Shown here piece after piece: positions 12,247-25,534 of a stretch of DNA of 36,989 nt. The notes below the pieces were generated by a model. The model did not search any database. It was given only the letters and a program-made list of their open reading frames with translations, and was not told the origin of the DNA. How positions within the stretch are numbered: the stretch's first letter is position 1; each line of letters starts with the position of its first letter. The DNA comes from an uncultured Anaerolineales bacterium (GTDB taxonomy: Bacteria > Chloroflexota > Anaerolineae > Aggregatilineales > Aggregatilineaceae). The stretch spans positions 1-36,989 of the forward strand of contig CAKZOB010000085.1 of assembly GCA_937135955.1 (NCBI GenBank). Reading direction: 5' to 3'. A program made the position numbers and the translations under genes.

Positions 12247-13230
12247 GTGAAACAGACTCTCACGCCCGGTAAGTGGCGGCATCTCAAGCAGACCAGCACC
12301 GATGAACATATCTTCACCATACTGGCGTTCGACCAGCGCGGTAGCTATCGCCGTATGTTGCCTGAAGGTACCTCGTACGAGCAAGCGGTGCAGATCAAGC
12401 GCGAGATCGTGGTGGCCCTGTCGTTTCACACCAGCGCCGTGCTGCTCGACCCGATCTATGGCCTGCCGTCGGCCCTGGACATGTCCGGCACGAGCGGGCT
12501 GTTGATGTCGCTGGAAAAGAGCGGTTACAGCGGCGATTCGACGTACCGTCAGCTTGCTTTCACCGACGGCTGGACGGTGAGTAAGATCAAACGGATGGGC
12601 GCTTCGGCGGTTAAACTGATGGTCTATTACCATCCGGATACTGGCGCACTGGCCGAGGAACTGGAGGAAACCATCCGGCAGGTGGCCCAGGAATGTCAGC
12701 GCTATGATATGCCGCTCTTCCTGGAGCCGATGTCCTACAGTCTGCAGGCGGGCGTACCCAAGGAAAGTGCCGCCTTTGCTCAGACGCGCCCCCGGGTGGT
12801 GCGCGAGACGGCACGGCGTCTTGGCGGGCTTGGTGCGGACGTGCTGAAGCTGGAGTTTCCCATGGACGCCGCCTTTGACAGTGACCGCTCCGCCTGGCAA
12901 GCGGCCTGTGCGGCGATCAGCGAAGTCTGTCAGGTGCCCTGGGTACTGTTGAGCGCCGGCGTGGACTTTGACATCTTCGAAGATCAGGTGCGGGTTGCCT
13001 GTGAGGCAGGGGCCAGCGGCTTTCTGGCCGGGCGCGCCATCTGGAAAGAAGCTGTCGTCATGAGTCCGGCGGAGCGGCAGCATTTCCTGGCGACGACGGC
13101 GGTCGAACGGCTCAGGCGAATTACGGACATTGCAAGTCGCCTGGCGCGACCCTGGACGGACTTCTACGCTCCGCTGGCCGGGAGCGATACGTGGTTCCAG
13201 TCCTATGAAGACTGGCAGGCAGACGCCTAG
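12247..13230 (+). CDS. lacD: Class I tagatose-1,6-bisphosphate aldolase (LacD family)
   Basis: Cytoplasmic Schiff-base aldolase that splits tagatose-1,6-bisphosphate to dihydroxyacetone phosphate and glyceraldehyde-3-phosphate; the family also accepts the fructose, sorbose and psicose isomers. The 327-residue length matches LacD. Visible motifs are AFDQRGSYRRML (27-38), LLDPIYGLPSA (66-76), AVKLMVYYHPD with Lys123, and ADVLKLEFP, where Lys201 is at the position of the Schiff-base lysine. The start is GTG at 12247 with GGAG 10 bases upstream. It is last in the locus A run and followed by a clear terminator. Homologous enzymes cleave 6-deoxy-6-sulfofructose-1-phosphate (YihT), but no other sulfosugar gene is present, so tagatose-bisphosphate is preferred. 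Confidence 0.87.
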   Translation: MKQTLTPGKWRHLKQTSTDEHIFTILAFDQRGSYRRMLPEGTSYEQAVQIKREIVVALSFHTSAVLLDPIYGLPSALDMSGTSGLLMSLEKSGYSGDSTYRQLAFTDGWTVSKIKRMGASAVKLMVYYHPDTGALAEELEETIRQVAQECQRYDMPLFLEPMSYSLQAGVPKESAAFAQTRPRVVRETARRLGGLGADVLKLEFPMDAAFDSDRSAWQAACAAISEVCQVPWVLLSAGVDFDIFEDQVRVACEAGASGFLAGRAIWKEAVVMSPAERQHFLATTAVERLRRITDIASRLARPWTDFYAPLAGSDTWFQSYEDWQADA

Positions 13231-13338: not shown

Positions 13339-13497
13339 CGCGCAGTCGCCTTCTGCCACGATTCTGCTAGCTGGTTTTGAGGCGGTTGCCTCGGTCGTGC
13401 CCAGTCTGATGCCTGCATCGGGGCGATTCCAAGACGGGTGAGAAGTCGTCGGCTTCGCTCGATCGTGGTTATTTATGCGCGAATGTGCTCGGAAATA

Positions 13498-13526
13498 TTG
13501 ACTTTGTGCGCATTTTAGAGTACTAT
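13498..13526 (+). promoter_or_regulatory. Promoter for the AgaS-type gene
   Basis: TTGACT (13498-13503), 17 bases, TACTAT (13521-13526), 42 bases before the start codon at 13569. The surrounding bases are more AT-rich than the genes. Confidence 0.7.
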
Positions 13527-13568
13527 ACAAGCATAAACAGTCTTTTTCTATGCAAAGGTCGTTTGTTC

Positions 13569-14642
13569 ATGGCCGAGAGGGGCTTTCACACTTTCAGTGA
13601 GATCAACAGTCAGCCGGACGTATGGGCAGCAACACTGGCTGAATTCCAGAGCCTCATTCCTGCGTTTGACCGCTTCTGGCAGCAACATCCCATTGAGCGC
13701 ATCATCTGTACCGGTTGCGGCTCGACCTACTATCTTTCTCTAGTTGTTGCTTCGTTGTTTCAGGCCCTGAATCACATTCCGACGCAGGCGCGCCCAGCTT
13801 CGGAGGTGGTGCTGTTTCCCGATGTGGTGCAATTGGGCGATACCAGCACCCTGCTCGTCACGATCTCGCGCTCCGGCGAGACGACCGAGACGCTCGATGC
13901 CGTGGAGGTCTTCCAGACGCGGGCCGGAGGGCCAGTGTTGGCGATCACCTGCTATGGTGACAGTGCTCTGGCTCGCCAGGCAGACTTTGTTCTGACGGCG
14001 AGCGCGGCCCAGGAGCAGAGCGTCGCACAGACACGCTCGTTTTCCAGCATGACCTTGCTAGCCGAGGCACTCGCGGGGCACCTGGCAGGGCTGGATGTAA
14101 CGACGGTTTTGAGGACACTGCCAGCCATTGCCCGGCGACTGCTGGACGAGTATCGCCCTCTGGCGCAGACACTCGGCGAAACGATGGCGATCCAACGCTT
14201 TTTTTTCCTGGGGACAGGTTTCCTGTATGGCATGGCGTGCGAGGCCATGCTGAAGATGAAGGAAATGTCTCTGTCGTATAGCGAAGCCTTTCATGCGCTG
14301 GAGTTCCGTCACGGCCCTATGTCCATGGTGGACGAGCATTCGCTGGTGATCGGTCTGCTGTCGGAAGACGCACAGCGCCATGAAATAGCCGTGTTGGAAC
14401 AGATGCAGTGGGCCGGAGCACATGTGCTGGCGCTTTCTGAGAAGGAAACAGGGCACGCAGATGTTGCGCGGTGGCATGAGGTGGTGCTGGGCAGTGAGCT
14501 GCCCGCATGGGCGCGCACGGTGACGTACTTGCCGGTGCTGCACCTGCTGGCCTATCACCGTGCCATGGCCAACCAACAGAATCCCGATCATCCGGCGCGG
14601 CTTGACGCTGTGGTGGTGCTCAAGTCCCTATTGACAAGCTAG
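13569..14642 (+). CDS. agaS: AgaS-type sugar-phosphate isomerase/deaminase (double SIS domain)
   Basis: Cytoplasmic enzyme with two sugar-isomerase (SIS) domains (about 40-180 and 200-350), 357 residues. Motifs are ICTGCGSTYYLSL (46-58), TISRSGETTETLD (98-110) and the family mark EFRHGP (245-250). The family includes AgaS, which converts galactosamine-6-phosphate to tagatose-6-phosphate plus ammonia, and the isomerase half of GlmS. There is no glutaminase domain, so it is not GlmS. I chose ATG at 13569 because a longer frame back to 13485 runs through the promoter. AAAGG lies 10 bases ahead. Together with NagA/AgaA-type and LacD genes it points to N-acetylgalactosamine use. Glucosamine-6-phosphate deamination is the main alternative. 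Confidence 0.85.
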   Translation: MAERGFHTFSEINSQPDVWAATLAEFQSLIPAFDRFWQQHPIERIICTGCGSTYYLSLVVASLFQALNHIPTQARPASEVVLFPDVVQLGDTSTLLVTISRSGETTETLDAVEVFQTRAGGPVLAITCYGDSALARQADFVLTASAAQEQSVAQTRSFSSMTLLAEALAGHLAGLDVTTVLRTLPAIARRLLDEYRPLAQTLGETMAIQRFFFLGTGFLYGMACEAMLKMKEMSLSYSEAFHALEFRHGPMSMVDEHSLVIGLLSEDAQRHEIAVLEQMQWAGAHVLALSEKETGHADVARWHEVVLGSELPAWARTVTYLPVLHLLAYHRAMANQQNPDHPARLDAVVVLKSLLTS

Positions 14643-14860: not shown

Positions 14861-16156
14861 ATGAAGAAATTCCGGCTTTTGACACTAGTGCTCATCGTAG
14901 CCATGCTCGTCCCAGTGAGCACGGGGCTGACTAGCGCCCAGGAGAAGGTCAAGCTGGTCTACTGGTCCATGTGGAATGAGACCGAGCCGCAGGCCAGGGT
15001 TATTCAGAGCTGGATCGCGGACTTTGAGGCGGCCAATCCCAACATTGACATCGAGGCTACTTGGAACGGTCGTCAGAATCAGACCCTGGTACGCACCGCT
15101 CTGAGCGCTGGGCAGCAGATTGACCTGGTGGATCAGGATGCCGACCCGCTCGCCGGTGGGCTGGTGCAGGAAGGGATGGCCTATCCGCTGAACGAATTTC
15201 TGGAAGAGAAGGCGCTGGATGAGGATGTGCCGATCCGCGAGGTCTTCACCCCCGGCACGCTCGAACTCTTCGCTGTGGATGGGCAGATTTACCTGTGGCC
15301 CTATATCTACAACACGTCGCAGTTCTGGTACAACAAAAACGCCTTCGCCGAAGCGGACGCTGAGCCGCCCAAGACCTGGGAAGATTTCCTGAGCGTGTGC
15401 CAGAAGTTGCTAGATGCCGGCTATGCTCCCATTGCCGCGGAGAGCGACATTCAGTTCTATCAGATTGACTATCTGACCTATCAGATTGTGCGCTACAAGG
15501 GCGTGGGCTTCCTGCGACAGACTATCGAGGATAAGACTGGTGAGATGTGGCGCGACCCCGTCTACCTGCAGGCGGCGCAGAATATGCGCGAACTGTGGGA
15601 TCGCGGCTGCATCCCGCCCGAAACCAAGGGGTATCTGTGGCCCGCCGGTCAGCAGACGCTGGGCGTCGGCGTGTCGGCGATGGAACTGGTCGGCTCGTGG
15701 CTGCCCATTGAACTGGCTCCGATCGTCGAGGGTAGCTTCGAGTGGGGTGCTTTCAACTTCCCGGAGATGCCGGGTGGCGTGGGCAAGCAGGGCGATCTGA
15801 TGGTATACCTGCTCAGCTTCATGATCGTCAAAAATACCGAGCATCCGCGCGAAGCCTTCGAGTTCTTGCGCTTCATCATGACCAAAGAAAACATGCAGAA
15901 AATGGCCGATGAAGCGCTGGTTGGAGTGACACGCCTGGGTGTGCAGTGGGCAGAAGCGATCCAGGATGGCGCGACAGCTGCGGCCAACGCTACGGCAGTC
16001 TTCGGCATGGCCGATGGTTCGGTGGCGCAGTACTCCGAGTTTGTCAACAACATTCTCTACGTCAACTGGTCGAAGCTCTTCCTGGACGAGCTGACGCCTG
16101 AAGAGTTCGTTGAGAAGATGGCCACTGACGCGGCGGAGTACTGGAAAGGCAAGTAG
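14861..16156 (+). CDS. Extracellular sugar-binding protein (SBP_bac_1 family), locus B
   Basis: Solute-binding protein of a MalEFG-type importer, 431 residues. Residues 1-26 form a Sec signal peptide (KK, hydrophobic core, TSAQEK) without a lipobox cysteine. The mature protein starts VKLVYWSMWNETEPQ, the usual first strand of family 1 binding proteins, with IDLVDQDADPLAG and GQIYLWPYIYNTSQFWYNKNAF typical of the sugar-site region. Aromatic residues there are expected to stack on the sugar. AAGGAG precedes the ATG. It opens the long run of genes that ends with two URO-D-like proteins, so the ligand is probably an N-acetylhexosamine or an oligosaccharide containing it (inference). Confidence 0.9.
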   Translation: MKKFRLLTLVLIVAMLVPVSTGLTSAQEKVKLVYWSMWNETEPQARVIQSWIADFEAANPNIDIEATWNGRQNQTLVRTALSAGQQIDLVDQDADPLAGGLVQEGMAYPLNEFLEEKALDEDVPIREVFTPGTLELFAVDGQIYLWPYIYNTSQFWYNKNAFAEADAEPPKTWEDFLSVCQKLLDAGYAPIAAESDIQFYQIDYLTYQIVRYKGVGFLRQTIEDKTGEMWRDPVYLQAAQNMRELWDRGCIPPETKGYLWPAGQQTLGVGVSAMELVGSWLPIELAPIVEGSFEWGAFNFPEMPGGVGKQGDLMVYLLSFMIVKNTEHPREAFEFLRFIMTKENMQKMADEALVGVTRLGVQWAEAIQDGATAAANATAVFGMADGSVAQYSEFVNNILYVNWSKLFLDELTPEEFVEKMATDAAEYWKGK

Positions 16157-16178
16157 TTCGCGGTCGAGCGGACGACAG

Positions 16179-16209
16179 ACTGGGATGGGACACAAGAGCC
16201 CATCCCAGT
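16179..16209 (+). terminator. Intercistronic hairpin after the locus B binding protein
   Basis: Perfect 11-bp stem ACTGGGATGGG (16179-16189) with CCCATCCCAGT (16199-16209), 9-base loop, followed by TGTTC rather than a T-run. It lies 22 bases after the binding-protein stop, inside the 129-base gap before the permease. Likely an mRNA-stabilising or attenuating element. Confidence 0.7.
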
Positions 16210-16285
16210 TGTTCATCGGCCTGCAGAGAGGCTCTTGGGCCGTTGACCACGGCGAGGAGTGGCGCGGCAGTGAGGAGCAGGGGGC

Positions 16286-17176
16286 ATGCGCGCGCGCAAA
16301 AGGCTGATCATCACCTTCTTGTTTCCGGCCACATTCCTTTATCTGGTGTTCTTTCTCTACCCCGCCATACGGGCGTTCTACTACAGCTTTTTCGACTGGT
16401 CAGGCTTTTCCTACGAGGCCAAGTTCATTGGCCTGGACAATTACAGGGAACTAATCCGCGACGATCTGTTCATTGAGAGCCTGAAGAACACGCTGACGAT
16501 CGTGTTTGTGGGCGGGGTGATCGTCTTTGGCCTGGCTTTCGCGCTGACCATTCTGCTCAACTCTGGGATCAAGGGGCGCAAGCTGTTCCGGGCGATTATC
16601 TTCTTGCCCAACGTGGTAGCCGTCATTGCGCTGACGACGATGTGGAGCGTGGCGATCTATCATCCGCGCTTCGGCATCCTCAAGAATGGCTTGGCTTACC
16701 TGGGCTTCGAGTCGCTTTCCAGGACTCTCTGGACATCGCCAGAGAATATCTTTGAGTCTATGCTGGCCGCGATCATCTGGATGAACGTGGGCTTTTACGT
16801 GGTGTTGTTGATGGCAGGCATTGATAAGATCCCTCATGAACTCTATGAAGCGGCCAGGATAGACGGGGCAAACGAACTGCAGATGTTCTATCGCATCACC
16901 GTGCCCCTGCTATGGGACGTGATCACCGTGGGTATTGTGTTGTGGAGCATCAGTGCTCTCAAAATCTTCGAATTCCCCTTTGCCTTCTCGGCGTTGGAGC
17001 CATCCCCGAACACCTACACGATCGCCGTGTATCTATATGTGATGGGTTTTGGTCAGCGCACCCCTATCTACCGCCTGGGTTATGCTACGGCGATGGGGGT
17101 AGCGCTCGTGCTGACGGTGGTTGTGGTGGTGGTGGTGCTGCGCCGTGTACTGCGCCGCGAAGTGATCCAGTACTGA
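16286..17176 (+). CDS. ABC sugar permease, MalF type (locus B)
   Basis: Inner-membrane permease, 296 residues, about six hydrophobic helices (first FLFPATFLYLVFFLYPAI). The EAA loop that docks the ATPase reads EAARIDGANELQMFYRITVP (about 191-210) and is well conserved. It would pair with the next gene product. GAGGAG lies ahead of ATG 16286 and there are 10 bases to the next gene. No ATPase gene accompanies the pair. Confidence 0.93.
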   Translation: MRARKRLIITFLFPATFLYLVFFLYPAIRAFYYSFFDWSGFSYEAKFIGLDNYRELIRDDLFIESLKNTLTIVFVGGVIVFGLAFALTILLNSGIKGRKLFRAIIFLPNVVAVIALTTMWSVAIYHPRFGILKNGLAYLGFESLSRTLWTSPENIFESMLAAIIWMNVGFYVVLLMAGIDKIPHELYEAARIDGANELQMFYRITVPLLWDVITVGIVLWSISALKIFEFPFAFSALEPSPNTYTIAVYLYVMGFGQRTPIYRLGYATAMGVALVLTVVVVVVVLRRVLRREVIQY

Positions 17177-17186
17177 GGAGGGCTAC

Positions 17187-18071
17187 ATGGCAACGACAGC
17201 ACACACCCGACCCTGGACGCTCAGCCGACGCACGCAAGGGCGGTTGCTGCGATTTGTGCGTCAGATTCCCGGTTACCTGGTGCTGCTGGCGTGGTGCGGC
17301 TTCACGGTGTTCGCCATTGGCTGGATCGCCATGTCATCGTTCAAGACCAATCGTCAGCTTTTCCAGGAGCCGCTCAAGCTGCCGCCGCAACTGCGCTTCG
17401 AGAACTACAGCACCGCCTGGAACGCGGTGGACATGGGCCGCTATTTCCTGAACAGCGTGATTGTGGTGTCGGTGTCCGTGTTTCTGATCCTGGCGATTTC
17501 CGCCCCGGCGGCCTACGTGCTGAGCCGGGTGAAGTTCCGGGGCAGCAATACGATCACTACGCTGTTTACCGCGGGCATGGGCATTCCCTATCCGCTGCTG
17601 TTCATCCCGCTGTTCGCGCTGATGCTGAACCTGCAGCTGGACAATACCCTGCCGGGGCTGATCGTGGTCTACGTCAGCCTGTCGCTGCCGTTCACTGTCT
17701 ACATCCTGACCGGTTTCTTCATCACACTGCCCAGTGAACTGGAGGACGCAGCGGTCATAGATGGATGTTCGGACTATCAGGTGTACTGGCGGGTGATGTT
17801 GCCTCTGGCTTCGCCGGGGCTGCTAACGGCGGCGATCTTCAATTTCATCGGCCTGTGGAATGAGTATCAGTTGGCGCTGGTGTTTGCCAACACGGACAAG
17901 ACGCGCACCCTGTCGCTCGGTCTCTATGCGCTACGCAATGCGCTGCAATACACCGGCGACTGGGCCAGCTTGTTTGCGGGCATTGTGATCATCATGCTGC
18001 CCACAGTGGCAATCTACATCATCCTGTCGGAGCGCATGATCTCCGGCATCACTATGGGGTCGCTCAAATAG
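17187..18071 (+). CDS. ABC sugar permease, MalG type (locus B)
   Basis: Second permease of the importer, 294 residues. A cytoplasmic N-terminal stretch of about 25 residues is followed by six predicted helices (YLVLLAWCGFTVFAIGWIA first). The EAA loop is EDAAVIDGCSDYQVYWRVML (near 188), and the C-terminus GITMGSLK is characteristic of MalG-type permeases. GAGGAGGG precedes the ATG. Only 8 bases separate it from the deacetylase gene, tying transport to amino-sugar catabolism. Confidence 0.93.
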   Translation: MATTAHTRPWTLSRRTQGRLLRFVRQIPGYLVLLAWCGFTVFAIGWIAMSSFKTNRQLFQEPLKLPPQLRFENYSTAWNAVDMGRYFLNSVIVVSVSVFLILAISAPAAYVLSRVKFRGSNTITTLFTAGMGIPYPLLFIPLFALMLNLQLDNTLPGLIVVYVSLSLPFTVYILTGFFITLPSELEDAAVIDGCSDYQVYWRVMLPLASPGLLTAAIFNFIGLWNEYQLALVFANTDKTRTLSLGLYALRNALQYTGDWASLFAGIVIIMLPTVAIYIILSERMISGITMGSLK

Positions 18072-18079
18072 GGGGTGTC

Positions 18080-19228
18080 ATGCGCACGCTGATCAGCGGG
18101 GGCACACTGCTGACGCCGCACACGGCGCTGGCGAATCACACTCTGGTCATTGAGGGAGGGTGGATCGCGGCTCTGGGCGCAGGTCGGCTCGCGCCAGGAG
18201 CGGGCGACCGGGTCATTGAGGCGGACGGGCGGTGGGTGGTGCCCGGCTTCATTGACGTGCATGTGCATGGCGCGGTCGGCTGGGACACTATGGACGCGAC
18301 ACCGGCGGCGCTGCAACAGATGGCGCGTTTTTTCGCGCAGCATGGCGTCACCAGCTATCTACCCACCACGATGACCGCCGCCAGTGCCGACATTCAGGCG
18401 GCGGTGCAGGCGGTTGCCAGTTGTCCGCAGCCGGAAAACGGCGCTCAGCACCTGGGCGTACACCTGGAAGGACCTTACCTGAATCTGGATTACCGGGGCG
18501 CGCAGCATCCGGATCACTTTCGCTCTCCATCTCCTGATGAATATCTGGCTTGGCTGGAGACAGGGGCGATTCGCCTGATCACCCTTGCACCAGAGCTAGA
18601 GGGGGCAGCGGAACTGGTTGCGGCGGGGCGGGCGCGCGGTGTCGAGTTCGCCATCGGGCACAGCGGGGCGAGCTACGAACAGGTGATTGAGGCCGCCAAC
18701 TGGGGCGTGCGGCAGGCCACGCACACTTTCAACGGGATGTTGGGATTGCATCATCGCACGCCGGGGACGTTGGGCGGTGTGCTGACGGACGATCGCATTT
18801 ATTGCCAGGTGATCGCCGATGGCGTGCACGTACATCCGGCGATGGTCAGGTTACTGGTACGGGCCAAGGGGGCAGGGCGCACCATCCTGATCACCGATGC
18901 CATGCGGGCGACCGGTCTGCAAGACGGCACCTACGATCTGGGAGGACAGAAAGTCGTGGTGCGGGAGGGCGTCGCGCGTATTGCCAGTGGCAGTCTGGCG
19001 GGCAGCACGCTGACGCTCGATGTGGCCTTGCGCAACGTGATGCGTTACACGGGGCTTGCGCTGGCGGAGGCGCTGCCGATGGTCACCGCGACGCCTGCCG
19101 AAGCGCTGGGGCTGGCTGGGCGCAAGGGGGTGCTGGCCCCTGGTGCAGATGCGGACGTGGTCTTGCTCGACGCCGATCTGAACGTTGTCATGACGCTGGT
19201 GGCAGGGCAGGTCGTCTACACAGCATGA
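18080..19228 (+). CDS. N-acetylhexosamine-6-phosphate deacetylase (NagA/AgaA family)
   Basis: Amidohydrolase that removes acetate from N-acetylglucosamine- or N-acetylgalactosamine-6-phosphate in the cytoplasm, 382 residues. The metal and active-site motifs are complete: DVHVHG (His61, His63), HLEGPYLN with Glu130, AIGHSGA with His194, ATHTFNGM with His215, and catalytic Asp273 in ITDAMRATG. The substrate-binding QVIADGVHVHP and the RGAQHP loop match NagA. Sequence alone does not separate the GlcNAc from the GalNAc form. AgaS and LacD nearby favour GalNAc, giving an AgaA role. It sits between the permease and a ROK kinase with 8- and 10-base gaps. Confidence 0.93.
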   Translation: MRTLISGGTLLTPHTALANHTLVIEGGWIAALGAGRLAPGAGDRVIEADGRWVVPGFIDVHVHGAVGWDTMDATPAALQQMARFFAQHGVTSYLPTTMTAASADIQAAVQAVASCPQPENGAQHLGVHLEGPYLNLDYRGAQHPDHFRSPSPDEYLAWLETGAIRLITLAPELEGAAELVAAGRARGVEFAIGHSGASYEQVIEAANWGVRQATHTFNGMLGLHHRTPGTLGGVLTDDRIYCQVIADGVHVHPAMVRLLVRAKGAGRTILITDAMRATGLQDGTYDLGGQKVVVREGVARIASGSLAGSTLTLDVALRNVMRYTGLALAEALPMVTATPAEALGLAGRKGVLAPGADADVVLLDADLNVVMTLVAGQVVYTA

Positions 19229-19238
19229 GAGGCAGGCG

Positions 19239-20240
19239 ATGGGTACGCCTTCGGTGATGGCAGTTGGTATTGACATCGGTGGCAGTTATACCAAGATTGG
19301 CCTGGTGACTGTCAGCGGAGAGATTCTGGCGTCCGAGCGCCTGGTCACTGCCGCCAGAGGTAAGGATGCGGGGCCGTTTCTGAGCGATGTGATGGGCCAG
19401 GTGCGGGCGCTGATGGCTGTTGCGCCTGTCGTCCCGATCGGGATTGGCATCTCCACGCACGGGTATATAGACGATCAGCGGCGCGGGCCGATCATCTGTG
19501 CCAATACGCCTGCTCTACGGGGTGTGAACATGCGCGGCCTGTTCGAAACCGAGTTCGGTCTGCCGGTGACGGTGAACAACGATCTCACCGCCCATGCGCT
19601 GGCGGAATACCATTACGGCAGTGGGCGCGGCGCGCGACGTTTCCTGTGTATGGCCATTGGCACAGGCCTGGGGGCCGGGGTGATCATCAACGGGCAGGCG
19701 CTCCGTTTCATCGGCGGCAAGGCGGGCGACACAGGCCGCGTCATCGTGGAACCCGACGGTCCGCCGGATGTCTACGGGGCGCGTGGCAGTGCAGAGGCGC
19801 TGTGCGGCGTCCCCGGCATCGAGCGCCTGGCGCTGCAGGCGTATGGGCATCCCGTCGCCGCCCATGAGGTGATCCGCGCGGCCAGAGAAGGTTCCGACTC
19901 GCGCGCGGTGCAGGTGATCCAGCAGATCGGCAGATACCTAGGACACGCCCTGGCGACGCTCTGCTCGATCTACCTGCCGGACAGGGTAGCACTGACCGGC
20001 GGCACGGCGGAGGCCGGGCCAGTGCTGCTGGAAGCATGCCGCTGTCGCTTCGACGAGCTGGTGGCGGACTATCACCGCGCTCTGGCTGAGTTTGCGCCGG
20101 ATTTCTATACTGGGGTAGAGATCGTGCTGGGTGAGATGCGCGGCGAGACGGGCATGGTCGGTGCAGCGGTAGAGATCTTCCAGACACAGGCCGCCGAAGC
20201 ATTTGCCCGCCGAGCACCAGTTGCCGCGCAAAGTGAGTGA
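19239..20240 (+). CDS. ROK-family sugar kinase (locus B), zinc motif absent
   Basis: A 333-residue ROK protein, probably the hexosamine kinase feeding the deacetylase. The nucleotide loop GIDIGGSYTKIGLV, catalytic Asp115 in VNNDLTAHALAEYHYG and GTGLGAGVIING are intact. The ROK zinc cluster is missing entirely: where a CxCGxxGCxE segment would lie there is VYGARGSAEAL. The E-x-GH histidine motif is replaced by GDTGRV (163-168). There is no N-terminal HTH, so it is a kinase rather than a ROK repressor. Activity is likely but the sugar is uncertain. AGAGG lies 6 bases before ATG 19239. Confidence 0.87.
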   Translation: MGTPSVMAVGIDIGGSYTKIGLVTVSGEILASERLVTAARGKDAGPFLSDVMGQVRALMAVAPVVPIGIGISTHGYIDDQRRGPIICANTPALRGVNMRGLFETEFGLPVTVNNDLTAHALAEYHYGSGRGARRFLCMAIGTGLGAGVIINGQALRFIGGKAGDTGRVIVEPDGPPDVYGARGSAEALCGVPGIERLALQAYGHPVAAHEVIRAAREGSDSRAVQVIQQIGRYLGHALATLCSIYLPDRVALTGGTAEAGPVLLEACRCRFDELVADYHRALAEFAPDFYTGVEIVLGEMRGETGMVGAAVEIFQTQAAEAFARRAPVAAQSE

Positions 20241-20260
20241 GTAGTGATGCGGAGGCAGTG

Positions 20261-21040
20261 ATGAGTTCCAACGATCTGATGTCTCTGGAGCGACAGGGGC
20301 AGATTGTCGAGCTGGTCAATCAAATGGGGCGCATGACTGTCGCGCAGCTCAGCGAGCGGTTCGGTGTGAGCGAGACCACGATCCGCCGCGATCTGGTAAC
20401 TCTGGCTGCCCGCAACCTGATCCGGCGCACGCATGGGGGAGCCATGCGGGTTGGTTCGGTGGCCACCAGCGAAATCCCTATCTTGCAGCGCCAGAATCAG
20501 CACGCTGCTGAAAAAGAGCGCATCGGGGCGGCGACCGCGGAACTGATTCGTAACGGCGAAACGCTGCTGATTGCGGGCGGCAGCACTGGCCTGGCTGTGG
20601 CACGGCATCTGAATCGGCACATGGGTTTGACCATTATCACCGAGTCTCTGCTGGTGGTGCAAGAGTTGCTGCGCCAGGGGCAGCACCGACTGATCATGTT
20701 GGGCGGCACCGTAGACCCCAACGAACAGGCTGTGCGCGGCACCCTGGCACGGCAAATGCTGGCGCAACTGTGCGTAGACAAGGTCATCATTGGGGCGCGC
20801 GCTGTCTCGGTGACGCGCGGCATCAGCGCCGAAACGCCCGAAGAAGCCGAGTTTCTCCGCGCGTACCTGGAGTGTGGCGATCACCGCATTCTGGTGACTG
20901 ATAGCAGCAAGTTCCACCTCTCGGCGCTGGCGACCCTCGCGCCGTTGTCGGCCATTAACACGCTGGTGACGGACACCAACCTGGACGAAGACATTGCGCG
21001 GCAGATTCGCGAGATGGATGTATACCTGCTGCTGGTCTGA
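20261..21040 (+). CDS. DeoR/GlpR-family transcriptional regulator (locus B)
   Basis: A 259-residue regulator with winged HTH ([18 protein letters not shown], recognition helix [13 protein letters not shown]), the linker THGGAM, and a sugar-phosphate sensor domain ([36 protein letters not shown]). ATG at 20261 was chosen because GGAGG lies 5 bases before it, against GTG at 20237 without a good ribosome site. Placed inside the catabolic operon, it probably controls the operon that encodes it, with a phosphorylated amino sugar as inducer (inference). It is only a distant paralogue of the regulator at 7266. Confidence 0.91.
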
Positions 21041-21084
21041 TGGTGACCAGCCCTGCGCGGACACTCACGAGGGAGAGGAAGACC

Positions 21085-22317
21085 TTGGCTCAGATCAAGC
21101 GGATGGTGGAGCGCATCATCGCGCTGCGCCAACAGGGTATCTATGTGACTCTGCTGGCAGTGTGTCCGAACTCCGAGGCGGTGCTGGAGGCGGCAGTGCA
21201 GGCGGCGGCTCGCAATAACGCGCCGATGCTCTTCGCCGCGACCCTCAATCAGGTAGATCGCGATGGCGGCTACACAGGTTGGACGCCGGCTGAGTTCGTG
21301 CGCAAGGTGCACGAATACGCCCGGCAATACGGCTGTCACGAAGCGCTGTATCCCTGCCTGGATCATGGGGGGCAGTGGCTCAAGGATAAGCACACGCGCG
21401 AGCGGTTGACCTTCGAGCAGACAACAGTTGAGGTCAAGGAGTCCATCACGGCCATGCTCGAAGCCGGTTACGCGCTGCTGCACATTGACCCTACCGTTGA
21501 CCGGACGCTCGGCGGCCCTTTGCCGGTAGAGACAGTCGTCGAGCGCAGCCTCGACCTGATCGCGCACGCTGAGGCCGAGCGACAGCGATTGGGCCTGCCC
21601 CCGGTCGCCTATGAAGTGGGCACCGAGGAAGTGCACGGCGGGCTGGTAGACCTGAATGCTTTTCGGCGCTTCTTGCAGTTGCTACGGCAGGGTCTGGCGG
21701 GGCGTGGTCTGGATCATGCCTGGCCAGCTTTCGTGGTGGCGCAGGTGGGCACCGACCTGCATACGACGCAGTTCGACCGACAGGCAGCGGCAGCGCTCTA
21801 CGAGATCGCCTCGCCATATGGCACGCTCGTGAAAGGGCACTATACCGATTGGGTGGACAATCCCGCTGACTATCCGCTGGCGGGGATGGGTGGGGCCAAC
21901 GTCGGGCCAGAGTTCACTGCCGAGGAATACGACGCACTGCTGGCATTGGAACAGCGGGAGCAGGACCTGTTGCGCACCAGACCCGGGGTGACCCCCTCGC
22001 GTTTCCATGCAACACTGGCAGCGGCGGTGGACGCTTCCAACCGCTGGCAGAAGTGGCTACAACCAGATGAACAGGGAAAAGCGCTGGACGAGCTGACTCC
22101 GGCGCGGCGCGAGTGGTTGCTGAAGACCGGTGCGCGCTACATCTGGACGGAACCGTCGGTTGTGATGGCGCGACAGCAGCTCTACGACAATCTGCGCCCG
22201 ATCATGGGCGATCCACATCGCTATGTGGTGGACTGGATCGCGCGGGCGATCGAACGCTACATTGTTGCTTTTCATCTGTTCAATGCGCGCGTTTTCTTTG
22301 AGGAATTGGGCCAGTGA
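21085..22317 (+). CDS. agaZ: GatZ/KbaZ/AgaZ-family protein without a GatY partner
   Basis: A 410-residue protein of the family annotated as the non-catalytic subunit of class II tagatose-1,6-bisphosphate aldolase. Family marks are [29 protein letters not shown] (the family usually has GGDHLGP), [33 protein letters not shown] and GANVGPEFT. No GatY/KbaY aldolase gene is in the window. From memory of published work, a stand-alone GatZ in Agrobacterium acts as a tagatose-6-phosphate 4-epimerase, which would fit here. The start is uncertain: TTG at 21085 has GAGAGG 6 bases ahead, while ATG at 21040 overlaps the DeoR stop but lacks a ribosome site. Confidence 0.84.
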
Positions 22318-22329
22318 GATAGTGAGATC

Positions 22330-23469
22330 ATGAATCGCCGAGAGGTTCTGCTGACCTTACTCACGCAGAAACGCAACCCCGGCTATATCCCGGTTTCGAC
22401 CTATGGGGTTGACCGCTACAGCCACCCCTGGATGGCTGACGATCCCTCGTACCAGGAAGGGCTGGCCTGGAGTGACCGCTATGACCATATTCAGGCGTTC
22501 TACTGTTCGTATTACGCCTCCTTTGGACTGACTGATATTCTGGCAGTGGACGATCCAGAACAGGTGACGGTCGAGCGATGGCGTCAGGAGCACACGGTTA
22601 TCACACGCTACACGCTACACACACCGCGCGGCGATCTGATGGCCGAGTACAAGGATATTGACGGCAACAAGTCTACCTGGCGCGAGCGTCACCTGATGCA
22701 GACAGACGACGACATCGAGGCATTTCTGTCCATGCCTTTCCGCCCGAAGCTGCCCGACCCAGCGGAGTATCAGGCGCTGCGAGAGGCTTTGGGCGAGCGA
22801 GGGATCGTGCAGGTGCAGCTTCCGAATCCGGTCTGCCTGGTGATCGAGAACATGGACTACGCCGAATTCATGATTCGCACGCGCACCATGCCGGAGAAGA
22901 TAGATGCGTTGCTGGAACGGGCGCAACAACTCATCCTGGAGTGGTTGCAGGGTGTGCTGGCGGCAGGGATCGGCGATTCCTTTCGTATCTTCGGCCCGGA
23001 GTACTGTCAGCCGCCGCAAATGCGCCTGTCCTACTATCAGCATGCGGTCACCGAGTTTGACCGGCCTCTGGTGGAAGCGATACACCGGGCGGGCAAGTTG
23101 GTGCAGTATCACTGTCATGGGCCAATTCGTGCTCTGCTGGACGAATTCCTGAAGCTGGGTGTTGACGCGATCGATCCCTGCGAAGCGCCACCCGCACCTA
23201 CAGGCGACATCACGCTGCGCGAGGTGGCCGAGCGGGTGGAAAATGCCCTGGTAATCATGGGTAACATTCAGCTCGATGACCTGGAACGGGCGGAGCCGGA
23301 GCAGATCGATCGGCTGGTGGCGGAGGCGGTGGACGCCGTGGGCGATCGCGCGCCATTCATGCTGCTGCCGACAGCGGCACCCTTCGTGACCCCCTTGCCA
23401 GAGCGCACCACGCGGAACCTGATTCAGTTCATGGAGTCAGCTCGCAAGTATGGCGGCGCGCCCGCATAA
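22330..23469 (+). CDS. URO-D-superfamily protein 1 (unknown role in sugar operon)
   Basis: A 379-residue TIM-barrel protein of the uroporphyrinogen decarboxylase/MtaA-CmuA methyltransferase superfamily. Typical features are the opening NRREVLLTLL, the long helix PEKIDALLERAQQLILEW, and the C-terminal barrel segment with YHCHGPIRALLDEFLKLGVDAIDPCE. In cobalamin methyltransferases of this family zinc is held by HxC and a later Cys. Here His261-Cys262-His263 and Cys284 could make such a site. The arginine-rich N-terminal substrate motif of true heme-pathway HemE is absent. Function unknown. It lies 12 bases after the AgaZ gene and is followed by a paralogue, so a sugar-linked role is inferred from context. 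Confidence 0.82.
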   Translation: MNRREVLLTLLTQKRNPGYIPVSTYGVDRYSHPWMADDPSYQEGLAWSDRYDHIQAFYCSYYASFGLTDILAVDDPEQVTVERWRQEHTVITRYTLHTPRGDLMAEYKDIDGNKSTWRERHLMQTDDDIEAFLSMPFRPKLPDPAEYQALREALGERGIVQVQLPNPVCLVIENMDYAEFMIRTRTMPEKIDALLERAQQLILEWLQGVLAAGIGDSFRIFGPEYCQPPQMRLSYYQHAVTEFDRPLVEAIHRAGKLVQYHCHGPIRALLDEFLKLGVDAIDPCEAPPAPTGDITLREVAERVENALVIMGNIQLDDLERAEPEQIDRLVAEAVDAVGDRAPFMLLPTAAPFVTPLPERTTRNLIQFMESARKYGGAPA

Positions 23470-23491
23470 AGCGATTCTCTGGAGGAAGGCG

Positions 23492-24547
23492 ATGTCGGAC
23501 AGCATGACCTCGAAGGAACGCTGGTTGGCCGTATTGCGGCGTGAGACGCCCGATCGGGTGCCGATGGATTACTGGGCGACCCCAGAAGCCACGCAGAAAG
23601 TGATGCAGTACCTGGGCTGCGCCAGCGAAGAGGAGATGTTCGCGCGCCTGCACATTGACAAGCCTTTCACCGTTGAGCCGGCGTACATCGGCCCCCCCAT
23701 CCTACCTGGTTACGATCTGTACGGCTGCGGCTTCAAAGACGTGGACTATGGGACAGGGGTGTATCCGGAGTGTGTGTATCATCCCCTGGCGCGTTACTCG
23801 ACGATCGAAGAGATCGAAGCGCACTACACCTGGCCTTCCGCCGACTGGTTCGACTATTCCGTGTTACGCGAGCAAGTGAAGGGCAAAGATCACCTGCCCA
23901 TCCGCGGTGGCGGTTCCGAACCATTTCTCACATATGTCAATCTGCGGGGGATGGAGCTGGCCTACAGCGATCTGGTGGAGAACCGCGCTCTGGTCGAGCA
24001 TTGTCTCGACAGGCTGTTCGACTTCGCCTATGAGCATACGCGCCGCATTTATGAGGCGATCCCTGGTGTGGTGAACATCACCTATGTGGCCGAGGATTTC
24101 GGTTCACAGGAGAATCTGCTGTTTTCGCCACGGATCATCCGCGAAGTGTTCATCCCGCGCATGAAGCGTATGATGGAACTGGTGCATCAGGCGGGCGCAT
24201 ACGTGTTTTTCCACAGCGACGGCGCGATCCGCGAGATCATCCCGGATATGATCGCGGCGGGGATAGATGCGCTCAACCCGCTGCAATGGCGGGCGAAGGG
24301 CATGGATCGCGAAGGGTTGAAGCGGGACTTCGGCGACAAGGTGATCCTGCACGGCGGCGTAGACAACCAGTACACGTTGCCGTTTGGCTCGGTAGACGAG
24401 GTGCGCCAGGAAGTCATTGACAATCTGCACATCCTGGGGGCAGGAGGCGGCTATATCCTGGCTCCCTGCCACAACATCCAGGCTGTCAGCCCCGCGGAAA
24501 ACGTCGTGGCGCTCTACGAGACAGGCTATGAATACGGGCGCTGCTGA
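23492..24547 (+). CDS. URO-D-superfamily protein 2 (unknown role in sugar operon)
   Basis: A 351-residue paralogue of the preceding protein. It starts TSKERWLAVLRRETPDRVPMDYW, the standard opening of URO-D-like proteins, and carries VAEDFGSQENLLFSP, then YVFFHSDGAIREIIPDMIAAGIDALNP, where the metal-ligand Cys of the HxCG motif is Asp (His241, Asp243). ILHGGVDNQYTLPFGS near residue 285 and the end GGGYILAPCHNIQ are also conserved in this branch. It differs from copy 1 in the metal-site residues, so the two may form a heteromer or act in sequence. ATG at 23492 has GGAGG 6 bases ahead. It is the last gene of the locus B run. Confidence 0.82.
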   Translation: MSDSMTSKERWLAVLRRETPDRVPMDYWATPEATQKVMQYLGCASEEEMFARLHIDKPFTVEPAYIGPPILPGYDLYGCGFKDVDYGTGVYPECVYHPLARYSTIEEIEAHYTWPSADWFDYSVLREQVKGKDHLPIRGGGSEPFLTYVNLRGMELAYSDLVENRALVEHCLDRLFDFAYEHTRRIYEAIPGVVNITYVAEDFGSQENLLFSPRIIREVFIPRMKRMMELVHQAGAYVFFHSDGAIREIIPDMIAAGIDALNPLQWRAKGMDREGLKRDFGDKVILHGGVDNQYTLPFGSVDEVRQEVIDNLHILGAGGGYILAPCHNIQAVSPAENVVALYETGYEYGRC

Positions 24548-24576
24548 GCGAAGCCCAGCGCGCCCGCGAGCTGCTG

Positions 24577-24602
24577 CCTGGCGTCACTCGTGTGATGCCA
24601 GG
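24577..24602. terminator. Hairpin between convergent genes
   Basis: CCTGGCGTCAC (24577-24587) pairs with GTGATGCCAGG (24592-24602), with one G-T wobble and a 4-base loop. It covers the end of the PfkB-family gene and follows the URO-D-like gene by 30 bases. There is no T-run, so terminator function in either direction is tentative. Confidence 0.45.
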
Positions 24603-25534
24603 AATGCCTCAACTTCGGCCAGCGGACGCGCGCCGCTCATGGGCCCCTGGGCGGTGACCGCCAGCGCCCCGCAGGCATTGGCGAAGCGCGCGGCTTCAAC
24701 CGGAGACGCTCCCTTCAGCCAGCGAATGAGAAAACCGGCATCGAAGCAATCGCCCGCGCCGGTGGGGTCTACTTCCTGCACGGCAAAACCGGGCACGTGT
24801 TGTGCGCCATTGCGGGTGTAGACGGTGCAGCCGTCTTTGCCCTGCGTGACGATCACAATGCGGTCGGGTTTGGCGGTGAGCAGGGACTCAACGGCCGCTT
24901 CTAGCGTGACCTGGCCGGTGAGCAGGCGCGCTTCTTCTGCTGTGGGGATAATCACGTCAGCCGCCTGCACGAAGGGGGCGAATACCTCACGGGCACGCTC
25001 GACAGGCATCAGTTGAGGGCGCAGGTTGGGGTCGAAACAGAACCTGGCCCCATGCTTCTGGGCAAATTCCAGGGCGCGTCGTCCGGCCTGCAGCGCGCGC
25101 TCATGGATGGACAGGGTCGAACCCATCAGGTGTAACACGCGCAAGCCCTCGAAGAGTTCTTCCTGAACCAGTTCTGGCCCGATCTGTCCAGCGGCGGCCT
25201 CGCGCACGTGGAACACGAAATCGCGCGAGCCGTCGGCGAAGTAGGCGACAAAGGCCACGCCGGTGGCATAGTCTTTCAGCACGCGGATGCCGCGCAGGTC
25301 TACTCCATCGGCGCGCAGTTGCTCGATCAGGCAGCGTCCGAAGGCGTCTTCGCCGACTGCGCCGATGCCAGCGACCTGCGCGCCCAGCCGTGCTGCCTGT
25401 ACCGCGAAAATGAAGGGAGCGCCGCTGGGGTAAGGGCCGGTGAAGGGGCCAGGTTGATCCAGGGGTTGGCCGATGCCGGTGCGCATGATTTCGACAAGCG
25501 CTTCGCCCAGGGTGAGGATATCCAGCGCCATCAT
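24584..25534 (-). CDS. PfkB-family carbohydrate kinase
   Basis: Ribokinase-fold sugar kinase, 316 residues, cytoplasmic. The N-terminal GEALVEIMR and SGAPFIFAVQAARLGAQVAGIG, the central FDPNLRP, NAD/NTE-like PTAEEARLL, and the catalytic signature DPTGAGDCFDAGF (256-268; Asp262 is the base) are all present. FDPNLRP is common in 2-keto-3-deoxygluconate and fructose/tagatose kinases, so the substrate cannot be fixed. In this setting a tagatose, fructose or sugar-phosphate kinase role is possible. AGGAG lies 5 bases ahead of the first of two adjacent ATGs. It is transcribed towards locus B, so it is separately controlled. Confidence 0.9.
   Translation of the reverse strand: MMALDILTLGEALVEIMRTGIGQPLDQPGPFTGPYPSGAPFIFAVQAARLGAQVAGIGAVGEDAFGRCLIEQLRADGVDLRGIRVLKDYATGVAFVAYFADGSRDFVFHVREAAAGQIGPELVQEELFEGLRVLHLMGSTLSIHERALQAGRRALEFAQKHGARFCFDPNLRPQLMPVERAREVFAPFVQAADVIIPTAEEARLLTGQVTLEAAVESLLTAKPDRIVIVTQGKDGCTVYTRNGAQHVPGFAVQEVDPTGAGDCFDAGFLIRWLKGASPVEAARFANACGALAVTAQGPMSGARPLAEVEAFLASHE

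Follow-up and report, generated by a model that had tools for sequence, protein, structure and literature searches.

Two adjacent genes at the end of an amino-sugar operon in an uncultured Anaerolineales bacterium (Chloroflexota) encode members of the uroporphyrinogen decarboxylase (URO-D) superfamily, here termed U1 (open reading frame 22330-23469) and U2 (23492-24547). They lie in a stretch of 36,989 nucleotides, hereafter the window, which is contig 85 of 93 in a 4.28 Mb genome (GenBank assembly GCA_937135955.1, contig CAKZOB010000085.1). On balance, we take U1 and U2 to be a sugar-side pair of corrinoid methyltransferases of the methyltransferase I (MT-I) type, which load a shared corrinoid protein and have an O-methylated amino sugar as substrate. 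The evidence is stronger for the corrinoid part of this interpretation than for the sugar-ether part, and stronger for U2 than for U1. In what follows, G000 denotes the window's genome, other G numbers further genomes of the phylum, C numbers contigs and L numbers the loci examined.

According to the proposed scheme, the transporter of the operon would bring in an O-methylated amino sugar, and U1 and U2, possibly acting jointly with one or the other binding the sugar, would take the methyl group from the sugar or its phosphate. The methyl group would pass from the ether to the Co(I) of the one stand-alone corrinoid protein that G000 encodes (on C19), whose cobalt would be kept reduced by a reductive activase (RACo, on C15), and would move onward to tetrahydrofolate and a Wood-Ljungdahl-like cluster (on C47). 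The demethylated sugar phosphate would be led by NagA, the SIS protein and GatZ into glycolysis. Removal of an O-methyl group was among the options offered by an earlier first-pass annotation of this DNA and agrees with the scheme, in which we infer both activity and substrate.

The same-strand run reads sugar ABC transporter, NagA, ROK kinase, AgaR-like DeoR regulator, GatZ/KbaZ-like protein, U1 and U2 (Table 1). From the first permease to gatZ the genes are separated by at most 10 bases or overlap slightly, and U1 follows gatZ after 12 bases. Because the likely start of U2 is the ATG at 23492, the sole start open to its 96%-identical orthologue in Anaerolineales bacterium UBA2029 (locus L017), the gap between U1 and U2 is 22 bases, and the spacing of 12-22 bases reported earlier is correct. 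No promoter-like site was found in 17900-24700, and the one terminator-like site there lies inside nagA (shuffled sequences average 2.9). The order of the operon is kept in L017, a relative of 96% identity, as far as its contig reaches. Compared with L017, the dN/dS ratios of U1 (0.048) and U2 (0.046) are accompanied by values of 0.040-0.084 for three neighbouring genes, and both genes are under strong purifying selection.

Both proteins match PF01208 (U1, 32.7 bits; U2, 80.8 bits when scanned from an ATG at 23450; cut-off 23.9), which confirms the two URO-D-superfamily frames annotated at 22330-24547. The two had been described as paralogous; close paralogy is rejected, since they share 15% identity and are placed in distant, separate clades of the tree. 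At a threshold of 0.001 their NCBIfam matches are to methyltransferase models only, and neither matches a hemE family. U2 scores 54.7 bits against TIGR01463 (MtaA/CmuA), below the cut-off of 235.4, and U1 does not match this model. A sequence search of the PDB returned no match for U1 and one matching sequence, MtaA, for U2. The predicted structures (U1, pLDDT 85.3 and pTM 0.88; U2, pLDDT 96.4 and pTM 0.92) are good models of URO-D barrels. For U2, Foldseek places MtaA first (4ay8, 1.3e-16; best UROD 1.3e-12, four orders of magnitude in E-value), and VIA-align gives a tie between MtaA 4ay7 (Z 26.0, rmsd 3.4, 305 aligned) and UROD 1r3y (Z 26.5, rmsd 2.8, 300 aligned). For U1, MtaA and HemE rank equally in Foldseek, and VIA-align gives Z 26.9 to UROD 1r3y (rmsd 3.0, 310 aligned) and Z 23.4 to MtaA 4ay7 (rmsd 3.5, 309 aligned).

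The likeness of both folds to UROD (Z 26.9 and 26.5) is what could suggest uroporphyrinogen decarboxylases of the heme pathway that ended up in a sugar operon, a reading that is already contradicted and to which we give next to no credence. The HemE of G000 is encoded on a separate contig (C59) and carries PVWLMRQAGR, an instance of the N-terminal HemE signature, P-x-W-x-M-R-Q-A-G-R. This signature was not found in U1 or U2, and as they also match no hemE family, a HemE function is rejected. The earlier assignment to the sugar operon rather than to heme synthesis is thus upheld, and U1 and U2 are probably not heme enzymes.

At the positions aligned with the His-Cys-Cys of MtaA, U2 has His241, Asp243 and His327, and U1 has His261 and His263 with no ligand at the late position; neither protein has a His-Cys-Cys zinc site there. 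Passages of PMC10418091 describe His-Cys-Cys in the thiol methyltransferases of the URO-D superfamily, and Cys ligands swapped for carboxylates or non-coordinating residues in its O-methyltransferases, and a passage of PMC13222342 mentions MT-I proteins without zinc, such as CdmB. Among 53 scored family rows, counting U1, U2 and their L017 orthologues, the site motif is HxD in 24, HxC in 21, HxH in six and another form in two. The first-pass annotation had read the triplets as His-Cys-His and His-Ser-Asp, which is what the sequence holds (U1 H261-C262-H263 and U2 H241-S242-D243), and had called both sites non-canonical. This fits U1, whose HxH is rare (U1 and its orthologue are among the six), but not U2, whose HxD is the commonest form of its group. 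A later Cys had also been ascribed to the U1 site; C284 is present, but it is replaced by Ile, Leu or Val in three relatives, and the adjacent E285 is kept in all of them. The site residues of U1 and U2 may bind a metal.

These residues also bear on a biosynthetic or repair role for one or both proteins, for example as MetE/core-type methionine synthases that share the operon by chance. MetE-type synthases have the same fold and match the U1 and U2 models at VIA-align Z scores of about 13-16. However, U2 has His/Asp/His where the thiol methyltransferases described in passages of PMC10418091 have His-Cys-Cys, and G000 has an open frame of 1215 aa, matching both B12-binding_2 and Pterin_bind, that we read as MetH. 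We consider such a role very improbable.

The absence of a corrinoid gene from the operon matters little, because G000 encodes a corrinoid protein, two RACo proteins and a Wood-Ljungdahl-like cluster elsewhere. The first-pass annotation was thus right about the window when it reported no corrinoid protein gene, but not about the genome. The corrinoid protein on C19 is the single stand-alone one, is MtbC-like, and has both B12-binding domains and a DxHxxG motif. The search that detected the two activases was positive in one of 14 control genomes. One RACo gene (C47) adjoins AcsE, identified by Pfam, with CoFeSP- and CODH/ACS-like genes recognised by eye from sequence starts, and the other (C15) adjoins a gene for a DUF1638 protein (L067 4304-7145). 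The cluster on C47 (L066, G000:C47:11000-30900) also includes a CooC-like gene, recognised by eye, and stands beside a sugar ABC transporter. DUF1638 is directly beside RACo in G201 as well (L166 5621-8046, G201:C29), and in G058 the two are about 8 kb apart (L163, G058:C129). This arrangement suggests that DUF1638 may be part of corrinoid methyl transfer.

The clearest single argument, in our analysis, concerns a pair other than U1 and U2. Locus L054 (G019:C15) combines sugar ABC genes and a LacI regulator with three URO-D proteins and a corrinoid protein; its other products are a dehydrogenase, an FGGY kinase and proteins resembling a glycosidase and a lyxose isomerase. Two of its URO-D proteins have gene-by-gene sisters in a URO-D pair on C35 of G000 (support 96/96 and 100/99; 37% and 29% identity), which lies among GH38, GH31 and ABC genes, and no corrinoid gene was seen on the examined C35 stretch. 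On C19, the genes for homologues of the L054 corrinoid protein and FGGY kinase (58% identity each) adjoin one another in opposite orientation, and this corrinoid homologue is the only stand-alone corrinoid protein of G000. Judging from these sequences, the related sugar-linked pair appears to have its corrinoid protein in cis in G019 and in trans in G000. Because a single run like L054 appears to be split across contigs in G000, a corrinoid protein in trans would be the natural reading for the sugar-linked URO-D proteins of this genome, and we infer that U1 and U2 use the one on C19.

Corrinoid genes are also found next to closer relatives of U2. The nearest rows to U2 in the tree are three orthologues of 63-65% identity (100/100), inside a clade of 12 rows (98/97) that includes L022 and L042, each of which shares its run with a corrinoid gene, and L023 of G201, which is directly upstream of one. 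The G201 run reads AcsE-like, MTHFR, RACo, DUF1638, URO-D, corrinoid, URO-D, and its DUF1638-RACo pair is common to C15 of G000. The nearest row to U1 is L014 (99/96). The tree omitted five of 55 URO-D rows (two fragments, one odd row and two L017 copies) and the MtaA fragment.

The association extends to whole genomes. Among 301 genomes of the phylum, a U2-like match at 1e-25 is present in 24 and a RACo match in 108 (107 over the cut-off), and all 24 U2-like genomes belong to the 108 (Fisher p 3e-12). Over the six families in which, among the genomes listed, RACo-positive and RACo-negative members are both visible, the product of the exact probabilities is 0.0017. For 23 of the 24 U2-like genomes, the matches listed include an open frame of 173-367 aa with B12-binding_2; the remaining genome is 73% complete. 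For contrast, three of five genomes with GatZ-like proteins are RACo-positive. The genomes with a U1-like match are all RACo-positive (3/3), a number too small for a test.

Because many URO-D proteins are present per corrinoid protein in this group, a lone U1/U2 pair without a corrinoid gene is less remarkable. In the three genomes that hold the nearest U2 orthologues, PF01208 matches and B12-binding_2 matches (the latter among the matches listed) number 36, some of them fragments, versus one in G136 (2.6 Mb, 99% complete), 66 versus four in G129 (590 contigs, so that some may be pieces) and five versus three in G283. A further case is G081 (L087), with 24 PF01208 matches, fragments included, versus one B12-binding_2 match among those listed. 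Large URO-D family loci occur in G129 (L051, L053, L150 and L151) and G136 (L050, L148 and L168-L187). Around 20 URO-D loci of G136, drawn from 30 clusters built from 35 of the 36 PF01208 matches, Pfam finds GFO_IDH_MocA in six and AP_endonuc_2 in five of 120 neighbours; neither is among the 25 commonest families of 118 background proteins. These genomes may point to a hub-and-spoke methoxysugar metabolism in part of the Chloroflexota, in which many URO-D methyltransferases, each specific for its substrate and some encoded in sugar operons, would depend on one or a few stand-alone corrinoid proteins and an activase; U1 and U2 would be the amino-sugar spoke, made of an unlike pair. We put this forward tentatively, as a possibility about which we are more doubtful than convinced.

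Sugar linkage of URO-D genes is recurrent, not constant. At 1e-15, GatZ-like proteins are found in five of the 301 genomes, and the four besides G000 lack a U2-like match (1e-25). The first-pass annotation had suggested a neighbourhood survey for constant linkage to nagA/agaS/agaZ. Constant linkage to nagA/agaS/gatZ is rejected here; linkage to nagA and gatZ is seen only in the window's lineage and its 96%-identical relative. Sugar linkage confined to this genome, which the first-pass annotation had named as a refuting outcome, is therefore borne out in part, for nagA/gatZ, but sugar-type ABC transporter genes precede two of the three more distant U1 relatives. In L051 the U1-like gene comes after genes for a binding protein and two permeases, and in L053 permeases precede it; L052 is not behind ABC genes, and Gfo/Idh/MocA- and isomerase-like genes recognised by eye are about 4 kb off. 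A search of genome contigs with U1 gave L017 only (one confirmed of 15 stretches), and a plasmid search gave no record for U1 and five weak records for U2, one of which served as the source of annotated sugar genes for neighbour labels.

Other URO-D pairs and triplets also sit in sugar operons, two of those operons in G000. On C48 of G000, two URO-D genes and a third, diverged one are accompanied by GH4, a galactokinase-like protein and ABC genes. The diverged protein (L061 11360-12469, 369 aa) adjoins the other two, is recognised by a URO-D profile made in this work but by no Pfam family at 1e-5, and has the longest branch of the tree. In 61 URO-D loci, with the U1-relative loci L051-L053 excluded, a sugar-type permease lies within 4 kb in 5/13 pair loci versus 5/48 single loci (p 0.028). 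These neighbourhood counts are based on a simple gene caller with phmmer labels and were corrected for five of the 61 loci in which the caller missed URO-D frames.

Several observations weigh against the interpretation of U1 and U2 as a sugar-side MT-I pair. Neither the window nor L017 has a corrinoid gene, and such a gene lies within 4 kb in only eight of the 61 URO-D loci (0/14 background loci, two of which themselves hold URO-D genes), with no clear excess near pairs (4/13) over singles (4/48; p 0.055). The 19 corrinoid loci of other genomes are mostly away from sugar-type genes, the sugar-type labels around them being one binding protein, two PfkB and some ABC ATPases (the gene caller missed the corrinoid label in seven of the 19, and all were confirmed afterwards). 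In G019 the two sister URO-D genes are about 6 kb apart, not adjacent. In G000, Pterin_bind is matched only by AcsE, by the MetH-size frame and by a frame of 284 aa (the MtrH type was not searched); the AcsE of the Wood-Ljungdahl-like cluster is the sole Pterin_bind candidate for passing the methyl group to tetrahydrofolate. RACo also serves CoFeSP/acetyl-CoA synthase and may just mark anaerobes. Some RACo-negative genomes (for example G046, G072, G152, G216 and G240; at most six candidates were scored per genome) have PF01208 matches that score far below HemE and presumably belong to other subfamilies; because of them, the RACo co-occurrence rule is established for the U2-like group only. The three U2 orthologues of 63-65% identity stand alone: none of their neighbours, which by eye include thymidylate kinase and TrpS, resembles the sugar genes of the window. 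The earlier proposal of a sugar role gains from the other pairs and triplets but not from these orthologues. Finally, because U1 has no late Cys or His ligand, is level in Foldseek and is placed nearer UROD by VIA-align, its MT-I role would rest on its operon and kin.

The isolated U2 orthologues could also mean that U1 and U2 are corrinoid methyltransferases acting on a methylthiol, a methoxyaromatic or a halomethane, with incidental operon membership, and known URO-D MT-I proteins act on such compounds according to passages of PMC13222342 and PMC10418091. We think this unlikely, given that both genes are intact, lie in close succession behind gatZ (gaps of 12 and 22 bases) and persist in L017, that two of the three U1 relatives are behind sugar-type ABC genes and that U2 does not have the His-Cys-Cys of thiol methyltransferases.

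Quite unlikely, in our judgement, is corrinoid-free chemistry, in which U1 and U2, perhaps as a heteromer, would for example cleave a C-C or C-N bond of the amino sugar or sugar phosphate, decarboxylate it or epimerise it. The operon without a corrinoid gene, the use of the URO-D fold by a decarboxylase, the first rank of UROD for U1 in VIA-align and the rare HxH site would all fit it. However, the remaining steps to glycolysis already have candidate genes, and U2-like proteins co-occur with RACo genome-wide. The unrecognised step envisaged in the first-pass annotation is weakened as well by the corrinoid protein, two activases and Wood-Ljungdahl-like cluster elsewhere in G000.

The remaining genes of the operon are listed in Table 1. 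The two permeases were assigned because they resemble BPD_transp_1 proteins from other loci. The GatZ/KbaZ-like protein scores 110.2 bits against TIGR02810 (agaZ_gatZ), not reaching the cut-off of 568.8; GatZ/KbaZ possess C4-epimerase activity according to the abstract of PMC11907403. The amino-sugar genes are flanked by genes for a tagatose-kinase-like PfkB protein (24584-25534, minus strand; 300.5 bits, cut-off 420) and a LacD-like aldolase (12247-13230, plus strand; PRK12858, 298.7 bits, cut-off 184). Together with GatZ, these would give two routes from tagatose 6-phosphate.

Table 1. Features of the window that bear on U1, U2 and their operon
Feature	Position	Strand	Remarks
U1, URO-D superfamily protein	22330..23469	+	379 aa; HxH-type site (H261, H263, E285)
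Codons of U1 H261-C262-H263	23110..23118	+	HxHG motif, aligns with MtaA His-x-Cys
Codon of U1 E285	23182..23184	+	Glu shared by U1 and the three relatives
U2, URO-D superfamily protein	23492..24547	+	351 aa; HxD-type site (H241, D243, N262-P263, Q265, H327)
Codons of U2 H241-S242-D243	24212..24220	+	H241 invariant in 34 rows
Codons of U2 C326-H327	24467..24472	+	H327 conserved at 90% or more over 34 rows; aligns with the late Cys of MtaA
GatZ/KbaZ-like protein, probable tagatose-6-P 4-epimerase	21040..22317	+	PF08013 133.8 bits (cut-off 26.7)
DeoR-type regulator, AgaR-like	20237..21040	+	AgaR 170.5 bits, under cut-off 260
ROK-family sugar kinase	19239..20240	+	PF00480
NagA, amino-sugar-6-P deacetylase	18080..19228	+	TIGR00221 324.8 bits, above cut-off 225.65
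Sugar ABC transporter, binding protein and two permeases	14861..18071	+	Binding protein PF01547, NgcE-like, under cut-off
SIS-domain isomerase/deaminase (GlmD/AgaS-like)	13485..14642	+	Under specific cut-offs

If the sugar-side MT-I interpretation is true, its implications are possibly broad. It would help to explain the dozens of 'uroporphyrinogen decarboxylase' genes in some Chloroflexota, correct a likely misannotation, and tie the breakdown of polysaccharides to one-carbon and acetogenic metabolism. In the open-licence papers searched we found no description of URO-D enzymes acting on sugars, nor of corrinoid enzymes of this superfamily removing sugar O-methyl groups anaerobically.

Among known systems, HemE shares the overall barrel of U1 and U2, but they differ from it in having no HemE signature and in belonging to a sugar operon in a genome with a true HemE. 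MtaA, MtbA and CmuA (TIGR01463) are represented by MtaA (4ay8/4ay7) as the top Foldseek match of U2, although U2 stays far below the cut-off of that family and has no His-Cys-Cys site. The corrinoid MT-I proteins of the superfamily (OdmB, VdmB, MtvB, MtoB and CdmB) have the URO-D fold of U1 and U2, and the likeness extends to the corrinoid protein and RACo-type activase encoded in G000 and to the carboxylate in the site region of U2; the U1/U2 operon differs by its sugar genes, its lack of a corrinoid gene and its two divergent URO-D proteins. The substrates named for such enzymes in passages of PMC13222342 are methoxyaromatics and halomethanes, and the same source counted genome-level presence as well as synteny in its corrinoid-protein criterion. 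The Mlp clusters described in passages of PMC10418091 also join several URO-D proteins with a corrinoid protein and an activase. L054 of G019 resembles the window in combining a sugar ABC transporter, a kinase and URO-D proteins in one run, with one URO-D in the clade of U2, but it carries a corrinoid gene, no nagA or gatZ was seen in it, and its other URO-D proteins fall outside the group of U1.

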